From an uncultured Anaerolineae bacterium (GTDB taxonomy: Bacteria > Chloroflexota > Anaerolineae > Anaerolineales > Villigracilaceae), in assembly GCA_903875215.1 (NCBI GenBank), contig CAIQVH010000009.1:1-64000 (forward strand): DNA of 64,000 bases, in the 5' to 3' direction. The position numbers and the translations under genes are program-made. How positions within the stretch are numbered: the stretch's first letter is position 1; each line of letters begins with the position of its first letter. Shown piece after piece: positions 8,468 to 33,585 of the stretch. Under the pieces are notes generated by a model. It was given only the letters and a program-made list of their open reading frames with translations. It ran no database searches and had not been told where the DNA came from.

Positions 8468-9556
8468 ATGAACATTGGCATTCCGAAGGAGCGGCGGCAG
8501 TTTGAGTTTCGGGTGGGCCTTTCGCCTGCCGGGGTTGAGATGCTCAATCAGCACGGGCATGTTATTTATGTGGAGCACGATGCCGGGTTGAGCGCTGGCT
8601 TTGTCGATGCGGAATATCAGAAGGCGGGGGCCAAGATCGTTTATTCTCCGCACGAGGTGTTTGGCCGGGCTGATCTGTTGTTGAAGATAGCCCGCCCGGT
8701 GCAATCGGAGATTGAGATGCTAAACCCGGGCGCCACCCTGATGGGGTTGCTGCACCTGGCTTCCACCCGCCAGGACCGCATTGAGGCGCTTTTAAAGAAT
8801 AAAATCACTTCGGTCGCGTATGAAGAGATCTGTCTGCCGGATGGCAACCTGCCTGTTCTGCGTTCGCTGAGCCAGATTGGCGGCATTATGACAGCCCAGA
8901 TTTCGGCCCGCATTCTGCAGAGTAATTTTGGCGGGAAGGGGATTTTGCTCGGAGGGGTGGCGGGTGTGCCGCCCGCCGAGGTGGTCATTTTGGGAGCTGG
9001 CACGGCGGGCACCTGCGCGGCAAAATCCTTTATGGGGTTGGGCGCGCATGTCACCGTGTTGGATAAGAATTTGGAACCGCTTCAACATATTGCCGAGCGA
9101 TATCCGCATGCGGTCACGATGATCTCTACGCCGCGCAACATTGAGCGCGTCTGCGCCTATGCGGATGTGGTCATTGGCGCGGTGCTGATTCCGGGCGAAC
9201 GCGCCCCGATCGTGCTGACGCGTGATCATATGAAGCGTATGAAGCCCCGCTCGCTGTTCATTGATCTTTCCATTGATCAGGGTGGCTGCGCCGAAACCTC
9301 CCGCCCGACCAGTCACGACCAACCGACTTTTGTTGAAGAGGGGATCATCCATTATTGTGTGCCGAATGTGCCCAGCGTGGTGGCGCGCACGGCTACGCAC
9401 GCTTTTGTCAATGCGGCCATGCCTTTCGTGCGCGAAGTGGCGAATTATGGCGTGGAACAGGCCATGACGAAGGATCCCGCCATCGAGGCGGCGGTCAATA
9501 CCCACCAGGGTGAATTGCGCCATGTGCATCTGTGGACCGCCGAGGAAGGTGATTAA
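8468..9556 (+). CDS. ald: Alanine dehydrogenase family protein
   Basis: 362-aa NAD-dependent dehydrogenase of the AlaDH/PNT family (alanine + NAD + H2O to pyruvate + NH4 + NADH). Substrate residues are recognisable: RVGLSP (Arg), LLKIARP (Lys) and LLHLAST (His). The Rossmann motif is ILGAGTAGTCAA (about 172-183), followed by IDQGGCAETSRPTSHD and HYCVPNVPS, as in true alanine dehydrogenases. The ATG at 8468 is chosen because AAGGAG stands 7 nt ahead. Two bases separate its stop from the next gene. Several side-chain segments differ from model AlaDH, so another small amino-acid substrate is possible. Confidence 0.88.
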   Translation: MNIGIPKERRQFEFRVGLSPAGVEMLNQHGHVIYVEHDAGLSAGFVDAEYQKAGAKIVYSPHEVFGRADLLLKIARPVQSEIEMLNPGATLMGLLHLASTRQDRIEALLKNKITSVAYEEICLPDGNLPVLRSLSQIGGIMTAQISARILQSNFGGKGILLGGVAGVPPAEVVILGAGTAGTCAAKSFMGLGAHVTVLDKNLEPLQHIAERYPHAVTMISTPRNIERVCAYADVVIGAVLIPGERAPIVLTRDHMKRMKPRSLFIDLSIDQGGCAETSRPTSHDQPTFVEEGIIHYCVPNVPSVVARTATHAFVNAAMPFVREVANYGVEQAMTKDPAIEAAVNTHQGELRHVHLWTAEEGD

Positions 9557-26791: not shown

Positions 26792-26822
26792 AAAAACAGC
26801 CGCTCAAAAGAGCGGCGTTTTT
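26792..26822. terminator. Terminator after the ROK kinase gene
   Basis: GCCGCTC-AAAA-GAGCGGC stem-loop with T runs on both strands. On the minus strand it ends the chitobiose operon and separates it from the GTP cyclohydrolase-like gene. Confidence 0.88.
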
Positions 26823-26838: not shown

Positions 26839-27876
26839 TTATCCACGAGATTTATAAAGCGCGACCAGGGCTGCACCGATGGCCTGCGAAAGGTCGCCGA
26901 GACTGGCGGGGACGATGGTCAGGCGTGCGCGCTGGGTCGGCCAGAGGTAGGGCATGGCAGTATCGTGGATGATGCCAAGGTAGCGTGCGCGGAAAGTGTC
27001 GGTGGTGGCTTCCGGGTCCATCAGCCCTCCGCCGATGACGACAAAGGTTGGGTCGAGGGCGATGGTCAGGTTGGCGACGTGGAATCCGAGCGCTCGGGCC
27101 TGGAAATCAAAAATTTCGGTGGCCAGCGGGTCTCCTTTTTGGGCAAGACTGCGCAGGGAAAGGACTTTTTCCTTGATCGGGGCGGAAGTTTTTGCCAGGT
27201 CATGGTCGGGGTATTTTTCCAGCTTTTCAGCCAGCAGATAGGGCAGCCCGGAGATGGTGGTATAGACCTCGACGCAACCCCAGTCTTTGCCACATCCGCA
27301 GGGGTAGGTGCGAGCGCCAAGCATGTGCAGAGGTGCGGGCATGTGCCCGCCTTCCATTCCTGCCAGGGTATCGCCGTCGAGCGGCAAGCCGTGACTGTCG
27401 ATGTAGGCAACTCCCAGGCCGGAGCCGGGTGCGAGCATCAGGACGCTGCTCTGGCTGTTGCCGCGCACGCGTTGGGCTTCGGCCACGCCGCCATAATTCC
27501 CATCGTTCCCGACGACCAGGGGAATGGCGCGTCCGGCGCGCTCGGCGAGGGCCTGGCTGTATTCGGTGTGCACGTCCCAGCCGGTGAAGCTGGCGGGCAG
27601 GTTGGCAGAGCGGTCTAGCACACCGTAGCGTTGATAGGGGCCGGGAATGGCCAGGCCAACACCCTGCACCTGGTCCCAGCTCAGAGAGTTATCGGCCAGG
27701 TAGGCGCTGATGCCATCCACCCAGCCGCGGATGACGGCTGCCGTGCCGGCCTGGGCATTGGTGGGCTGTTGCAATAAGCGGGTCGAGATGGTGGTACCAT
27801 CGCTCCAGACGCCGCCAGTTTTGGAGGTGGTGGCTCCGCTGTCGGTGCCGAGGAAGATTGCTGGCGATTGGGTCAT
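26839..27876 (-). CDS. ROK-family sugar kinase
   Basis: 345-aa ASKHA-fold kinase. Phosphate-1 motif GTDSGATTSK at the N-terminus; the catalytic aspartate is likely in VVGNDGNYGGVAEA. The ROK zinc site is present as GGH followed by PCGCGKDWGCVE. ROK kinases phosphorylate glucose, N-acetylglucosamine, N-acetylmannosamine and the like. Being in an operon with chitobiose phosphorylase, GlcNAc to GlcNAc-6-P is the natural guess. There is no N-terminal HTH, so it is an enzyme, not a repressor. Last gene of the operon, followed by a terminator. Confidence 0.9.
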   Translation of the reverse strand: MTQSPAIFLGTDSGATTSKTGGVWSDGTTISTRLLQQPTNAQAGTAAVIRGWVDGISAYLADNSLSWDQVQGVGLAIPGPYQRYGVLDRSANLPASFTGWDVHTEYSQALAERAGRAIPLVVGNDGNYGGVAEAQRVRGNSQSSVLMLAPGSGLGVAYIDSHGLPLDGDTLAGMEGGHMPAPLHMLGARTYPCGCGKDWGCVEVYTTISGLPYLLAEKLEKYPDHDLAKTSAPIKEKVLSLRSLAQKGDPLATEIFDFQARALGFHVANLTIALDPTFVVIGGGLMDPEATTDTFRARYLGIIHDTAMPYLWPTQRARLTIVPASLGDLSQAIGAALVALYKSRG

Positions 27877-27924
27877 ATTAAAATTCGTGCCTTTCATGGA
27901 GTGATTGATTCTGGGGTGGGAATT

Positions 27925-28803
27925 CTACGCGGTGAGCAGCTGCTGAAGCCCGGCAGGGATGAAGGGCTGGTTGACTCCTTCATATAGTTCCCAGGTTTCG
28001 GTGTGCTGAATGGTCTCGCCTGGGGCAAGCCGGGTCAGCGGGCCAAGACTTTCCAGTTCGATGAATTGGTGGTTGGTGTATGTTTCGGTATTGCAGCCGC
28101 CGTCGGGGAATGGCGCGCCGGGGTGCGGATCGAAGCGCTTGATGAACAGGGTGCCTTCCAGAAAATAGCCCTGCCAGCCGTGCGGGTTATAGTAGCCGAC
28201 TTTTACCGGCGGCAGGCTTCCGCTGGCGCGCAGCAGGATATAGTCATCGCGCAGGATCAGGCGTGGGTCGTCAATCCGGGTGTAAGGCCAGAGGGTCAGC
28301 TGGCGGTTGGCAAGCAGACCGGCCGGGTCGGTATTGCCTGTCGGCTGGGGGAAGATTCCTACGCCGCCCAGCCGGAACATGGTCAGTGCCCAGGGGGCCA
28401 ATTCCACGGTCCAGGGGCCGTCGTTGCGCAGTTCGTGGTGTAAAACTACCTGAGGGCGCGTCTCGTTGAGACGGATTTCGATACTTTTGGCGATGTGCGT
28501 CCAGGATTCGGTGGGCTGGTCGAAGCGCAGGCCGCCTGGAACCAGGCTCATCACCGCGCCTTCGTGATCTGGAATGTAGGTGCGCGGCATGGCTTCGGGG
28601 GCGTGCCACAGGCGGTGACCTCCGTGGAAGTAAAACGGGCCATGGGGGGTTTCAAGCGGCGTGTCGGCGAGTTCGGCGAAAAGGTTGGGCCTGCCGGAAG
28701 GGGAGAAGCGCACGATGCGTGGGGATGTGGCCAGACATTCGATTTTCACAAAATCGTTTTCCAGGATGTGCGTGGGTCGGCCGTTAAAATTTCCGTGTTT
28801 CAT
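27925..28803 (-). CDS. DUF4380-like / mutarotase-fold protein
   Basis: 292 aa, no signal peptide. The sequence shows the conserved block FYFHGGHRLWHAPEAMPRTY (about 55-75), WTVELAPWALTMF and a C-terminal PGETIQHTETWEL, resembling DUF4380 proteins with the galactose-mutarotase supersandwich fold. The His residues could support anomeric proton transfer. In this operon it may interconvert anomers of GlcNAc or chitobiose so that the phosphorylase or kinase gets its preferred form; that is inference. The open frame extends 197 codons further upstream, but that portion overlaps the upstream gene out of frame and is not coding. Start is ATG at 28803. Confidence 0.75.
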   Translation of the reverse strand: MKHGNFNGRPTHILENDFVKIECLATSPRIVRFSPSGRPNLFAELADTPLETPHGPFYFHGGHRLWHAPEAMPRTYIPDHEGAVMSLVPGGLRFDQPTESWTHIAKSIEIRLNETRPQVVLHHELRNDGPWTVELAPWALTMFRLGGVGIFPQPTGNTDPAGLLANRQLTLWPYTRIDDPRLILRDDYILLRASGSLPPVKVGYYNPHGWQGYFLEGTLFIKRFDPHPGAPFPDGGCNTETYTNHQFIELESLGPLTRLAPGETIQHTETWELYEGVNQPFIPAGLQQLLTA

Positions 28804-28904
28804 GAATATGCCTCGAAGTGTTTGCCATGGTCTCCATGGTCTGAGCCATGCCAGCAGTGTTGCGATATTACTTTCATTGATGGATCGCGTCAAGGCGGCT
28901 GGTT

Positions 28905-31076
28905 TCAACTGCTGATGTAATTTCTGATCCAGTCGACCAGTTCCTGGGCTTTGGCCTGTGTCCCGGCTTCGGCGAAGATGCGCAGGACTGGTTCGGTGCC
29001 TGAAAAGCGCAGCAAGGCCCAGTTGTCTTCGGCCAGCAGGAACTTGGTGCCATCGTAGTGGGAGGTGTTGAGAATGCGGTATGGGCCGAGGGCTTCCAGC
29101 GGGTGTTCCTTGATGCGCTTGGGGATGATGTAGCGCATTTCGGGCATGGCGGGCATGCCAGCTTCCACGCTGTACAGCCGCCCGGTCAGCCCGTAGACGG
29201 TCTCGCGCAGCTCCGATATTTTCTTGCCGGTAGCGGCCAGCATCTCTACGAACAAGGCGCAGGCGAAGATGCCGTCTTTGCCGAGGATGTGCCCGCGAAT
29301 GGTCAGGCCGCCGCTCGATTCGCCGCCCAGCAGGGCGTTGTGTTCGAGCATCCCGGCAGCAATATGCTTGAACCCAACCGGCACTTCGACGCATTTCTCG
29401 CCGAAATGGGTCGCCAGCCGGTCCAACAGGTGTGTGGTGGCGAGATTGCGCACCACGCCTCCGCGTTCGCCGCGCACTTCGTGCAGGTACCAGTAAAGCA
29501 TCAGCAGGATGTCATTCGTCTCGATGTATTCGCCTTTTTCATCGATGATGGCAATGCGGTCGGCGTCGCCGTCCATGGCCAGGCCCAGGTCGTAGCCGCC
29601 TTCGCGCAGGTGGGTGATGAGCAGGCGCAGTGTATCCAGGTTGGGAGCCGGGGAGCGCCCGCCAAAAAGCGGATTGCGTCGTTCGTTGATGAAGGTCACG
29701 CGACAGCGGGCTTCGTTCAGGATGATGCCCAGCGTCAGCTGGCCGACTCCATACATCGGGTCGGCGATGACTTTCAGCCCGGCCTGGCGGATAATCCGCA
29801 GATCGATGAATTTTTCAACGGCGTCGACGTACAGGTTGGTATAGTCGCGCTTGATGACAATGCCGGCTTTCAGGGCAATGTCCAGGTCAAGTTTGACGAC
29901 TTCCTGGCTCGTCAGGCGGTTAGTTTCGGCTTCGATGCGGTCCGTTTCATCGGTCAGCAGCAGCGAGCCATCGCCATGAAAGACTTTCAGGCCGTTCCAT
30001 TCGGGCGGGTTGTGGCTGGCGGTGAAGCATAGTCCCAGGGCAGATTTTTCCAGGGCGGTGGCAAATGTTACCAGTGGAGTCGGGGCGTCTTCAGGCAGTA
30101 AAATGGCGGGGATGTTGTTTCCGGCAAAAACTTCGGCGGCGGCGTCTCCGGCAAAATCGGAGAGGAAACGCCGGTCGTAGCCGATGATGACGCCCTGTTT
30201 TTCCAGCCCGAGGCGGGTGATCTCGTTGGCGAGCGCCTGGCAGAGCCGCCGGACGTTGTGAAGGGTGAAACCCTCGCCGATGATGGCGCGCCAGCCACCC
30301 GTGCCGAAGGTGACGATGTTCTCCTCCTCGATGCGGCGCGGGCGGTAGATCCGCTTCTGTAAAATCAGCTCGGCCTGGGCCAGGTCGGCAGGGGTGTTGA
30401 TGCCGAGAACTTCATCCTGGTCGTAGACCTGGTAGCTTTCGACACGCAGCCCGGAGCGAATCAGCTGGTGGGCAGTATCCGTTAAACGGTATTCGCCGTC
30501 GCTGGCGGAAAGTTTGTTCAGGGCTGTGAATATTTTTCCGGCTTCGACGACGTATGCGCCCATGTTAAGCTCGCGGATGGCGCGCATTTCTGGCGAGGCA
30601 TTCTCCTCTTCGATGATATCCACGATCCGGTTGCGCGCATCGCGGAGGATGTGCCCGTAGGGCAGCGGCTGTTCGACAATTGCCGTCAGCAGGGTGAGAT
30701 GGGCCTCGCGCAGGCGATGGCGATTGAGCAGCCCGCGGATCGAGGCCGGGCGGAAGAGAGGCGTGTCACCATAGAGGATCAGCAGATCGCCGGCGAAATC
30801 CTTTAGCAACGGTTGCAGTTGCAAAACGGCGTGCCCGGTGCCGAGTTGTTCCTCCTGGGTGACATAGTTGTAATTTTCACCCAAATGCGCCCGGACTTCA
30901 TTCTGCTGGTAGCCGACGACGATATACAAATCTTTGGGCGTAACCACCTGCAGGGCATTTTTCACCATGTAATCGATGACTTTTTGATCACCGAGCGGCT
31001 GGAGCAGGATTGGCTGGGCTGCGGTTGCCGGGTTTTTCCCCCCGGCCAGGATGACGGCTTTTAGTTCTTTGGTCAT
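28905..31076 (-). CDS. Fused GlmU-like nucleotidyltransferase / phosphohexomutase
   Basis: 723 aa. Residues about 4-235 are a sugar-1-phosphate nucleotidyltransferase domain close to the N-terminal half of GlmU (EEQLGTGHAV, ILYGDTPL, ELNMGAYV, LGINTPAD). About 255-722 is a complete alpha-D-phosphohexomutase: phosphoserine loop CFTASHNPPEWNG, metal loop MDGDADRIAI, sugar loop GGESSGG and phosphate-binding RFSGTEPVLRI. There is no left-handed beta-helix acetyltransferase. The nucleotidyltransferase signature G-x-G-T-R-M...P-K is degraded to GGKNPATAAQP, losing the catalytic Arg and Lys. Start at 31076 with GAGG ahead. In the operon it would act on GlcNAc-1-P released by the phosphorylase. Confidence 0.88.
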   Translation of the reverse strand: MTKELKAVILAGGKNPATAAQPILLQPLGDQKVIDYMVKNALQVVTPKDLYIVVGYQQNEVRAHLGENYNYVTQEEQLGTGHAVLQLQPLLKDFAGDLLILYGDTPLFRPASIRGLLNRHRLREAHLTLLTAIVEQPLPYGHILRDARNRIVDIIEEENASPEMRAIRELNMGAYVVEAGKIFTALNKLSASDGEYRLTDTAHQLIRSGLRVESYQVYDQDEVLGINTPADLAQAELILQKRIYRPRRIEEENIVTFGTGGWRAIIGEGFTLHNVRRLCQALANEITRLGLEKQGVIIGYDRRFLSDFAGDAAAEVFAGNNIPAILLPEDAPTPLVTFATALEKSALGLCFTASHNPPEWNGLKVFHGDGSLLLTDETDRIEAETNRLTSQEVVKLDLDIALKAGIVIKRDYTNLYVDAVEKFIDLRIIRQAGLKVIADPMYGVGQLTLGIILNEARCRVTFINERRNPLFGGRSPAPNLDTLRLLITHLREGGYDLGLAMDGDADRIAIIDEKGEYIETNDILLMLYWYLHEVRGERGGVVRNLATTHLLDRLATHFGEKCVEVPVGFKHIAAGMLEHNALLGGESSGGLTIRGHILGKDGIFACALFVEMLAATGKKISELRETVYGLTGRLYSVEAGMPAMPEMRYIIPKRIKEHPLEALGPYRILNTSHYDGTKFLLAEDNWALLRFSGTEPVLRIFAEAGTQAKAQELVDWIRNYISS

Positions 31077-31112
31077 TTTGCCTCGCTTGGGGGTGCATCG
31101 CACCCTCTATTG

Positions 31113-33515
31113 CTATCCCATCACCACCATTACCTCATTGATCGATCCGGCCGGCTGCTGCGGCACCACGTTACCCGTCATCTGTTGACCATTCACCCTG
31201 ACAGATTTCACACCTTTTTCGATGTGAGCCGGATTCTGCACTGTGATGTTATACGTCGCCCCGCGCCACTGGCGGACGACCTCGAAGCCCTCCCACTCTG
31301 CCGGGAGACACGGGTCGATGACGAGACCCTCAAAGCTGAGCCGCACCCCGAGGATGTACTTTGTTGCGGCAGTGTACATCCAGCCGGCGGTGCCGGTCAG
31401 CCAGGGGTGGCGCGCCCGTCCGTGGGCGCTGTGATCGCGCCCCATAATGAACTGACAGTACGAATACGGTTCGGCCTGCCGGATTTCGATGATGTCATTC
31501 TGGTTGTAAGGCAAAATCGCGTCGTAGAACTTCATGGCGCGCGCCCCGCGGCCCAGCAGGCACTCGGCGATGATTGGCCAGGCGTTGGGATGGCTGAAAA
31601 TGGCGCCGTTTTCCTTGATGCCCTTATAGACGCGCGTCACATAGCCAATATCATCGTTCGGCTGGCTGTAGGCTGGCCAGAGGAGATGATTTCCATAGTT
31701 GGAATAAAGATGGCGGTCAATGGCATCCATGGCGCTCAGGGCGCGTTCGCGCGGGGCAATCTCTCCAATTACCGCCCAGGCCATATGCTCGAGGAAGATC
31801 TTTCCTTCCGTGTTGTCCTTTGAGCCGATTTTTAATCCCTTTTTGGTAAAACCGCGCAGGTACCACGCGCCGTCCCACAGCTCGCGGTTGCAGGTTTCTT
31901 TTACGGTTGCTGCCAGCATCGTGTATTTTTCCACATCGGCGCTGCGGCCCAGGTAGCGGGCTAATTCCAGGAAGGCGTTGATGGCCCAGACGTGCAGGAA
32001 AGAAACCAGCGCGCTTTCTCCACCGCCCAGGTTCAGACAGTCATTCCAATCTGCGCGCAAGCCTTTGCAGACGCCGTTGGCGCCGGTTTGTGAAGCAGAA
32101 AAATCAAGGGCGCGTTTCATATGGTCGTATACGCTGGCCGGTTCACCATCGGCAAAAGGGATCACCTGCTCCAGAAAGTCCAGGTCGCCGGTTTCTTTAA
32201 CAAACTCGACGATGGTTGGCACCAGCCAGAGATGATCATCGGAGCAGGTATCCTCCAGCCCGTGGATAATTTCATCCATGCTTGGGGTGGGTACCACTGT
32301 CGGCAGTTTCACGCCGGGCAGCTTGTTTTCTTGCGGCTCGAACACGGCGGGGTCAAACAAGTGCAGCCCGTACCCGGCGCTGACCTGTCCCCGCAGTAAT
32401 TCGATGATTCTCTGGCGGCATTTGGTTGGGTTGGTGTGGATGACGCTCAGGATGTCCTGGGCGGTGTCACGGTAGCCCAGGCCGGTGCGCCCGCCAACTT
32501 CAATGAAGGAGGCGAAACGCGACCAGACCACGCAGGTCTCGGCCTGGAACAGAGTCCAGGTATTGAGCATGGTATTCATGCCCCGGTGCGGGGTTTTGAC
32601 CTGTAAAACGGCTTGCTTTGCCCGCCAGTACTCCGCCAGTTCGGCAAAGGCGGCATCCACATTCGAGAAATTGGAATAGCGGGACTGGGCGGCGCGGCCG
32701 GCGCCTTCGCGCGAGCCCACGCCTAGCAGAAAGACGAAGCGCGTATCTGCGCCTGGCGCGAGGGTAAAGCGTTTGTGCAGTGCGCCGCAATGATTGCCGC
32801 CCAGCTCGCTGGAGCCCGAGCACTCGCCGCGCTGCACAGCGGCGGGGTCGCTTTCGGTGTGGTAGACGCCGATGAACTGGTCGCGCAGGCAGTCGTAGCT
32901 ATCGGGGTTGAAGTTGGCGGTGAAAAAGTGGTACATCCAGGGTTCGTAGAAAAAATCGTACTCGATTATGCCGTCTTTGTAATTCGTTCCGCTGGCGTAC
33001 AGGCTCATTTGCAGGTTCTGGTTGTCAATGTCAATGTGGTGATAGGAAAACTCGCAGTAGCTGAAAATGCTCATTTGGCGCGTTTTTCCCCCGCTGTTGC
33101 GGATCTTGACATCCCAGATTTCCAGCGGATCATGGACGGGGATAAATAGCGTTTGCTCGGCCTGGATATCCTGGTAATCGCAGGAAAATTTGGAGTAGGA
33201 CAGCCCGTGCCGCGCTTCATAGCGGGCTTTTTCGAGTGGTTTTCCCACCGGCTGCCAGGATAACGACCAAAACTCGCCCGTTTCATCGTCGCGCAAGTAA
33301 ACATAATGCCCGGGCCGGTCGAGCGGCACGCTGTTGGGGCGGAAACGGGTAATGCGGTGGTGCTGGGCAGTTTTATAAAAAGAATATCCGCCTGCATTGT
33401 GAGAAATCACCGTGCAAAAATCTTTGACGCCCAGGTAATTTGTCCATGAAACAGGCACATCGGGCCGTTCGATGACATATTCCTGCTTAGACTCGTCGAA
33501 AAAGCCATGACGCAT
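31113..33515 (-). CDS. chbP: GH94 N,N'-diacetylchitobiose phosphorylase
   Basis: 800 aa, full length for GH94. Splits chitobiose with phosphate into alpha-GlcNAc-1-P and GlcNAc. The N-terminal beta-sandwich begins near SWTNYLGVKDFCTVISHNAG. The alpha/alpha-barrel contains RFASFIEVGGRTGLGYRD, CSDDHLWLVPT and the catalytic acid in RADWNDCLNLGGGES (Asp489). These segments resemble Vibrio-type chitobiose phosphorylase more than cellobiose phosphorylase, which lacks FIEVGGRTG. No signal peptide, so the disaccharide must be imported; no importer is in the window. First gene of the operon, with a LacI-type operator on its promoter. Confidence 0.9.
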   Translation of the reverse strand: MRHGFFDESKQEYVIERPDVPVSWTNYLGVKDFCTVISHNAGGYSFYKTAQHHRITRFRPNSVPLDRPGHYVYLRDDETGEFWSLSWQPVGKPLEKARYEARHGLSYSKFSCDYQDIQAEQTLFIPVHDPLEIWDVKIRNSGGKTRQMSIFSYCEFSYHHIDIDNQNLQMSLYASGTNYKDGIIEYDFFYEPWMYHFFTANFNPDSYDCLRDQFIGVYHTESDPAAVQRGECSGSSELGGNHCGALHKRFTLAPGADTRFVFLLGVGSREGAGRAAQSRYSNFSNVDAAFAELAEYWRAKQAVLQVKTPHRGMNTMLNTWTLFQAETCVVWSRFASFIEVGGRTGLGYRDTAQDILSVIHTNPTKCRQRIIELLRGQVSAGYGLHLFDPAVFEPQENKLPGVKLPTVVPTPSMDEIIHGLEDTCSDDHLWLVPTIVEFVKETGDLDFLEQVIPFADGEPASVYDHMKRALDFSASQTGANGVCKGLRADWNDCLNLGGGESALVSFLHVWAINAFLELARYLGRSADVEKYTMLAATVKETCNRELWDGAWYLRGFTKKGLKIGSKDNTEGKIFLEHMAWAVIGEIAPRERALSAMDAIDRHLYSNYGNHLLWPAYSQPNDDIGYVTRVYKGIKENGAIFSHPNAWPIIAECLLGRGARAMKFYDAILPYNQNDIIEIRQAEPYSYCQFIMGRDHSAHGRARHPWLTGTAGWMYTAATKYILGVRLSFEGLVIDPCLPAEWEGFEVVRQWRGATYNITVQNPAHIEKGVKSVRVNGQQMTGNVVPQQPAGSINEVMVVMG

Positions 33516-33548
33516 GGGGAAGCCTCCCGGTGGAATGGAATAGGCTTG

Positions 33549-33585
33549 ATTCTACCTTAATACCGGCGGACTGTAACCGGTTACA
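33549..33585 (-). promoter_or_regulatory. Chitobiose operon promoter with LacI-type operator
   Basis: Minus strand: GTTACA (33572-33577) at minus-35, 17-bp spacer, TAGAAT (33549-33554). The perfect palindrome TGTAACCGGTTACA at 33572-33585 has the central CG and TAACCGGTTA core of LacI/GalR operators and covers the minus-35. No LacI-type gene lies in the window. Confidence 0.78.

Follow-up and report, generated by a model that had tools for sequence, protein, structure and literature searches.

A putative LacI-controlled operon for phosphorolytic chitobiose use, with a GlmU-like domain on its mutase that looks dead as a uridylyltransferase

We analyzed a 64,000-nucleotide stretch of DNA (the window) from an uncultured Anaerolineae bacterium of the Villigracilaceae (contig CAIQVH010000009.1 of assembly GCA_903875215.1), in which four minus-strand open reading frames (ORFs), running from 33515 to 26839, encode a GH94 enzyme, a two-domain fusion protein, a mutarotase-like protein and a ROK kinase. 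We propose, with a probability of about 60%, that this is a LacI-controlled operon for the phosphorolytic use of chitobiose, in which a former GlmU domain serves as a ligand sensor on the mutase. The phosphorolytic pathway taken alone we consider quite probable. Such a pathway is already known; the new element is that, judging from its residues, the GlmU-like half appears to be dead as a uridylyltransferase.

In the proposed mechanism, chitobiose would be used by an energy-saving phosphorolytic route under LacI-type control. The disaccharide would enter, probably via an ABC importer encoded after a LacI gene with the same operator, and the GH94 enzyme, judging from its sequence, would split it with phosphate into N-acetylglucosamine 1-phosphate (GlcNAc-1-P) and free N-acetylglucosamine (GlcNAc). 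The mutase half of the fusion would convert GlcNAc-1-P to GlcNAc-6-P, with NagA acting next, and free GlcNAc would be a substrate of the ROK kinase or of a BadF-type kinase encoded with the importer. The N-terminal half would be a former GlmU uridylyltransferase domain that has lost its triphosphate loop and kept its pocket for uridine diphosphate-GlcNAc (UDP-GlcNAc) and Mg2+; it may tune the mutase to the UDP-GlcNAc pool, as the catalytically dead GMPPA does for GMPPB. The features at the center of this proposal are as follows.

31113-33515, minus strand: predicted GH94 N,N'-diacetylchitobiose phosphorylase, 800 amino acids (PF17167 587 bits, PF06165 273 bits)
28905-31103, minus strand: fusion protein, 732 amino acids from a GTG start (Met10 is an alternative start), with a GlmU-like N-domain and a phosphohexomutase, by domain matches
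30342-31067, minus strand: N-domain, residues 13-254, GlmU uridylyltransferase fold without the nucleoside triphosphate (NTP) signature, by VIA-align to 1g97
31008-31037, minus strand: degenerate loop, residues 23-32, in place of GxGTRM...PK, by alignments
28908-30314, minus strand: phosphohexomutase domain, residues 264-732, four motifs intact, Z 44.8 to 1tuo

An AlphaFold2 model of the fusion reached a predicted local distance difference test score (pLDDT) of 85.7 and a predicted template modeling score of 0.87. In this model, the N-domain superimposes on GlmU bound to UDP-GlcNAc and Mg2+ (1g97) with a VIA-align Z of 34.3 and a root mean square deviation of 1.5 Å over 241 residues. Apart from the N terminus and the linker, its weakest stretch is residues 21 to 30 (mean pLDDT 56). 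The left-handed beta-helix acetyltransferase that forms the C terminus of GlmU is replaced in the fusion by phosphoglucomutase/phosphomannomutase (PGM/PMM) domains, the only Pfam matches in that half at E 1e-3. In a tree, the fusion N-domains cluster apart from GlmU with a support of 0.875.

To compare relatives, we collected loci with patterns drawn from the window's own protein, some of them in the N-domain and none in the degenerate loop, and kept the best 80 of 96; a list built in this way favors fusions over bare mutases. None of the 70 fusions has the signature GxG[TS]R, which 30 of 31 GlmU controls carry. The equivalents of R18 and K25, each found in 31 of the 31 controls, occur in 4 and 3 of the 70 fusions, respectively, and together in only one sequence (L100). 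Mean entropy in the loop is 2.74 bits in the fusions versus 0.45 in GlmU, compared with 1.32 versus 1.14 in the remaining domain. Because none of the 70 members examined retains the triphosphate loop, the N-domain should not make UDP-GlcNAc, and these alignments make it very probable that the domain is not a working uridylyltransferase. The original prediction of a GlmU-like/phosphohexomutase fusion stands as to its two-domain make-up but did not note the lost loop, and the GlmU-like half cannot be taken for a second catalytic domain.

The pocket residues Q76, G81, T82, Y103, D105, G140, E154 and N169 are kept in 70 of 70 fusions, and N227 in 68. This pattern suggests that the N-domain is likely still a ligand-binding domain. 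That it senses UDP-GlcNAc is a tentative proposal, and we advance still more cautiously the broader idea of a mutase family with a built-in, dead, GlmU-derived UDP-GlcNAc sensor, through which a full pool of wall precursor might set how GlcNAc-1-P is split between catabolism and GlmU. Several points tell against a sensor. The pocket residue A13 is kept in 66 of the 70 fusions and G14, beside the loop, in only 61; Y103 itself is found in only 25 of the 31 GlmU controls; and the alignment is ambiguous across the degenerate loop. The UDP-GlcNAc/Mg2+ pocket residues are listed and numbered here as in the E. coli GlmU structures. Moreover, one bryobacteral locus (L111, Bryobacterales, 8780-8960) has an MFS gene, a mutase gene and a GH94 gene with no room for an N-domain, which must therefore be dispensable, an accessory, at least there.

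That locus, which keeps mutase and GH94 without the N-domain, and a loop that drifts freely would both suit an N-domain that is a dead remnant or purely structural (for stability or oligomerization) and has no ligand role, so that only the mutase matters. We consider this somewhat unlikely, given that eight pocket residues are identical throughout the fusions. In alignment A1, 11 of the 13 pocket columns (the nine named above plus L11, A12, A13 and G14; exceptions, A13 and G14) are invariant, whereas the N-domain as a whole, at about 240 residues, has 27 such columns; decay would hardly have spared the pocket. The domain could instead be a docking or channeling site that binds the GlcNAc-1-P released by the phosphorylase and passes it to the mutase. 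The conserved sugar-1-phosphate and Mg ligands, and neighbors that often include GH94 and sometimes the N-acetylhexosamine 1-kinase NahK, fit such a role; the uridine-side residues Q76, G81 and T82, however, are equally strict (70/70), and a GlcNAc-1-P site would not need them, which makes this alternative unlikely. A bifunctional salvage enzyme that turns GlcNAc-1-P into UDP-GlcNAc for the cell wall would share the GlmU fold and pocket, but we find it very improbable: loss of the NTP signature in 70 of 70 fusions disfavors UDP-GlcNAc synthesis by this protein, a complete GlmU is encoded elsewhere in the window's genome, and catabolism is suggested by the neighboring genes (NagA and NagB-II in Rhizomicrobium, NagA in five alphaproteobacterial loci).

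The GH94 protein has both the catalytic and the supersandwich domain. Against the PDB, it matches 1v7v, the Vibrio chitobiose phosphorylase, over its full length at 1183 bits; the next entry scores 550 bits and the best cellobiose phosphorylase 517. Its D492, presumably the catalytic acid, aligns with D492 of 1v7v within a common DWNDCL stretch. These matches support the assignment of the first gene as a Vibrio-type chitobiose phosphorylase, in line with the original prediction, and disfavor cellobiose specificity. Because 8bou, likewise named a chitobiose phosphorylase, reaches only 550 bits, more distant GH94 enzymes could share activity on chitobiose. Breakdown of cellobiose or another glucobiose, with the mutase acting as a phosphoglucomutase, could appeal to the mixed nature of family GH94 and to the best structure matches of the mutase (phosphoglucomutase/phosphomannomutase), but we give it scarcely any weight given the Vibrio-type match at more than twice the bits and the NagA, NagB-II, GH18, NahK and GlcNAc 2-epimerase genes of related loci.

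The mutase half of the fusion is intact by its motifs: TASHN is present in 71 of 71 aligned rows (P366 in 69), DGD and GESSG in 70 of 71 with one gap each, and SGTEP in 69 of 71 with two gaps. Conversion of GlcNAc-1-P to GlcNAc-6-P, the reaction first predicted for it, is most likely in view of these motifs and of its genomic partners GH94, NahK, NagA and NagB-II; GH94 and NahK would both yield an N-acetylhexosamine-1-phosphate. Separately, loci L115-L124 in metagenome-assembled genomes (MAGs) labeled Spirochaetota and Bacillota encode mutases that are 41 to 45% identical to the C-terminal half of the fusion and have no N-domain match.

The full fusion is encoded by 5 of 152 genomes of the taxonomic family, and the same five carry the GH94 clade of the window (69 to 100% identity); those other GH94 matches that reach E 1e-150 or better are at 36 to 40%. 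The full fusion was found in none of the ten other genomes of the window's genus. It recurs at 55 to 74% identity in public genome contigs of Chloroflexota, Acidobacteriota and Alphaproteobacteria, and in single MAGs labeled Verrucomicrobiota (L050) and Actinomycetota (L107), labels that may reflect binning errors. In 26 of 70 other loci, a GH94 gene of the same strand adjoins the fusion, following it in 23 and preceding it in 3, at a distance of 11 to 434 bases by match ends. On the tree, the GH94 label needs 7 changes versus 21.5 in shuffles, which indicates that an adjacent GH94 is clustered yet has been gained or lost several times. The four-gene set that was first predicted does not recur in related genomes, and we rejected it as a conserved unit: at a tblastn threshold of 1e-8, 84 related loci (four duplicates) hold no relative of the mutarotase-like gene and a single relative of the ROK gene, at 28% identity. 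The conserved unit is the phosphorylase–fusion pair, with the mutarotase-like and ROK genes outside it.

Partners in the related loci include amino-sugar genes. The locus of Rhizomicrobium electricum (L091) reads GntR regulator, NagB-II-like deaminase (345 bits; cut-off, 430), NagA (306 bits; cut-off, 226), GH18-domain gene, MFS, fusion and GH94, and relatives of its NagA (54 to 77%) occur in four more alphaproteobacterial loci. The order in acidobacterial loci is MFS, fusion, GH94; in five of them (L056, L067, L069, L076 and L081), GH94 is followed by a GH18 relative. A GlcNAc 2-epimerase is also among the partners. In L080, L099 and L105, the gene immediately upstream of the fusion encodes a NahK relative; that of L099 scores 309 bits to solved N-acetylhexosamine 1-kinases. 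In the bifidobacterial lacto-N-biose route, NahK supplies N-acetylhexosamine-1-phosphate, and our proposal for these three loci resembles that route. A difference is that GH112 (PF09508), an alternative source of GlcNAc-1-P, gave no match in 39 genomes, a result that does not show absence because the control genomes had none either.

A NahK relative (E 1e-30 or better) is present in 15 of 38 fusion genomes without an adjacent GH94, in 1 of 36 fusion-less relatives and in 0 of 6 genomes with both fusion and GH94 (Fisher P of about 9e-5, computed as if the genomes were unrelated). The query came from one fusion genome, which favors that group, and the MAGs may be incomplete. Some observations tell against the proposal. 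None of the 38 genomes with a fusion but no adjacent GH94 has a match of this GH94 clade, with L091 as the positive control; nine of them hold a GH94 at 34 to 39% (E 1e-100 or better). In 23 of the 38, a NahK relative is missing as well at E 1e-30, so the fusion there may have another substrate or direction. Some neighbors are not amino-sugar genes, namely, URO-D family and DUF4432 genes in L080 and NfeD in L105.

Two further neighborhoods were noted. In L080 (5833-7059), a DUF4432 protein follows the NahK relative and the fusion; DUF4432 resembles mutarotases, and a mutarotase-like companion may thus recur outside the window. In four Chloroflexota loci without an adjacent GH94 (L058, L088, L089 and L100), members of one protein cluster directly follow the fusion; a phosphodiester glycosidase domain (NAGPA, PF09992) is present in the one from L089.

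The remaining features of the operon are its control elements, its two companion genes and its terminator.

33572-33585, no strand: operator palindrome TGTAACCGGTTACA, exact, covering the −35-like hexamer
33549-33577, minus strand: promoter-like site GTTACA, 17 bases, TAGAAT, by consensus scan (9/12), with its −35 within the operator
27925-28803, minus strand: mutarotase-like protein, 292 amino acids (NF052227 TTE1925 mutarotase, 249 bits; cut-off, 550)
26839-27897, minus strand: ROK-family sugar kinase, 352 amino acids (PF00480, 85.6 bits, over cut-off)
26799-26816, no strand: bidirectional intrinsic terminator GCCGCTC-AAAA-GAGCGGC, 7-pair stem with T-rich tails on both strands

All elements of the layout first described are present: four codirectional genes, an exact palindrome covering the −35, and a bidirectional terminator. 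The −35-like GTTACA lies at 33577-33572, inside the operator, and the −10-like TAGAAT ends at 33549; the promoter scan is weak on its own, with 6 promoter-like sites in the region versus 2.9 in shuffles. The terminator scan reads 26799-26816 on both strands and finds 10 terminator-like sites in the region versus 7.8 in shuffles. The flanking genes, one for an MgsA-type AAA ATPase (plus strand) and, past the terminator, one for GTP cyclohydrolase II, look unrelated to the operon.

The exact palindrome TGTAACCGGTTACA occurs twice in the 3.77-Mb assembly, in excess of chance (0.014 copies expected by base count; none of the reversed control pattern). When up to two mismatches are allowed, the genome has 10 sites for the operator and 10 for the control pattern, which leaves the two exact sites as the evidence. 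The second one (C16:103697-103710) ends 11 bases ahead of the ATG of a LacI-family gene. This gene is the candidate that emerged from a genome search for the regulator, which the original prediction had placed outside the window; all seven LacI-type matches in the genome are indeed on other contigs. As in a LacI-family regulon, one exact operator is common to the regulator gene and the target operon and stands before each. The recognition helix of the C16 protein is VSVATVSR. This helix is also that of E. coli GalR, whose half-sites are TGTAA. These sequence features support LacI-type control of the operon, with the C16 gene as the candidate regulator.

On the same strand, the C16 LacI gene is followed by genes for a candidate binding protein, two ABC permeases (PF00528), a 466-amino-acid protein, a GH4 enzyme and a BadF-type kinase. 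The candidate binding protein and the 466-amino-acid protein have no Pfam match at E 1e-3; the former has weak PDB matches to sugar-binding proteins (best, 36 bits). Solved relatives of the kinase are a MurNAc/GlcNAc kinase (72 bits), a hexokinase (56 bits) and the human GlcNAc kinase (50 bits). The transporter is a candidate for the chitobiose importer, which the original prediction had noted as missing from the window. Its sugar is uncertain because the run also contains the GH4 gene, which is alpha-galactosidase-like below the model cut-off, and the 466-amino-acid protein without a Pfam match.

The exact 14-mer operator was found in 5 of 142 loci examined, all five from the window's own genome. 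Among 12 related operons, exact palindromes of at least 14 bases within about 350 bases upstream were found in one (L062), where a perfect 20-base palindrome of different sequence, GGACACGGTTAACCGTGTCC, lies 167 bases upstream of GH94 and is perhaps the operator of another regulator. Ahead of a second LacI gene of the window's genome (L004), the near-operator TGTTACCGGTCACA at C31:493013-493026 lies 65 bases before a helix-turn-helix domain match (C31:493092), and this site recurs in the opposite orientation at C10:37776-37789, possibly as a second small LacI regulon; sites as loose as this one are not more numerous than expected by chance.

The start of the mutarotase-like protein was chosen by us, the mechanical ORF being longer. 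The original prediction had called it a mutarotase-fold, DUF4380-like protein. It gives a near-full-length match to the TTE1925 mutarotase model at 249 bits, below the model cut-off of 550; the DUF4380 part does not hold, as no Pfam match was found at E 1e-3, nor was there a PDB sequence match at E 0.1. It may adjust the anomer, as first predicted. The ROK protein, which would act on GlcNAc, scores 50 bits against the curated NagK model, well short of the cut-off of 380, and the curated models assign it no substrate. Further along the proposed route, NagA is encoded elsewhere in the window's genome. A point that weighs on the other side is that the NagB-I model finds nothing in this genome, in which NagB-II was not searched.

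A V. furnissii chitobiose phosphorylase pathway was reportedly described by Park, Keyhani and Roseman in 2000. In Vibrio, the route likewise proceeds from a GH94 phosphorylase, giving GlcNAc-1-P and GlcNAc, to a mutase, a kinase, NagA and NagB. The Vibrio mutase is unfused. The window's operon differs in the GlmU-like pseudoenzyme domain on its mutase, the LacI-type operator, and the different kinase and mutarotase-like companions. A passage of PMC4814513 cites the phosphorylase–mutase–NagA–NagB route as known from Vibrio (V. furnissii), and the genome description of acidobacterium SBC82 (PMC6252331) reports a chitobiose phosphorylase and an acetylglucosamine-1-P mutase in the same two-step route; GlmU and uridylyltransferase have 0 mentions in that text, which does not discuss the fusion under those names. 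Among the open-access papers listed, no title or abstract opening describes a conserved pseudo-GlmU–mutase fusion.

The N-domain shares its fold and UDP-GlcNAc pocket with GlmU; the fusion lacks the GxGTRM signature and has a mutase where GlmU has its acetyltransferase half. A known parallel is GMPPA, an inactive paralogue that, according to PMC11228364, binds GDP-mannose and inhibits GMPPB. Both would be catalytically inactive relatives of sugar-nucleotide pyrophosphorylases, feedback regulation being our inference in the case of the N-domain only. GMPPA is a eukaryotic protein of its own whose target is a pyrophosphorylase, whereas the N-domain is fused to a mutase in bacterial catabolism.

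If the proposal is correct, bacteria would have their own equivalent of GMPPA, with a pseudo-pyrophosphorylase turned into a metabolite sensor at the point where chitin breakdown meets cell-wall synthesis. One member is encoded by a named culture-collection strain, Rhizomicrobium electricum DSM 21034 (L091), which makes the proposal testable. The analysis would also give an assignable function to a fusion family of Chloroflexota, Acidobacteriota and Alphaproteobacteria, and it warns against annotating its members as enzymes that make UDP-GlcNAc.

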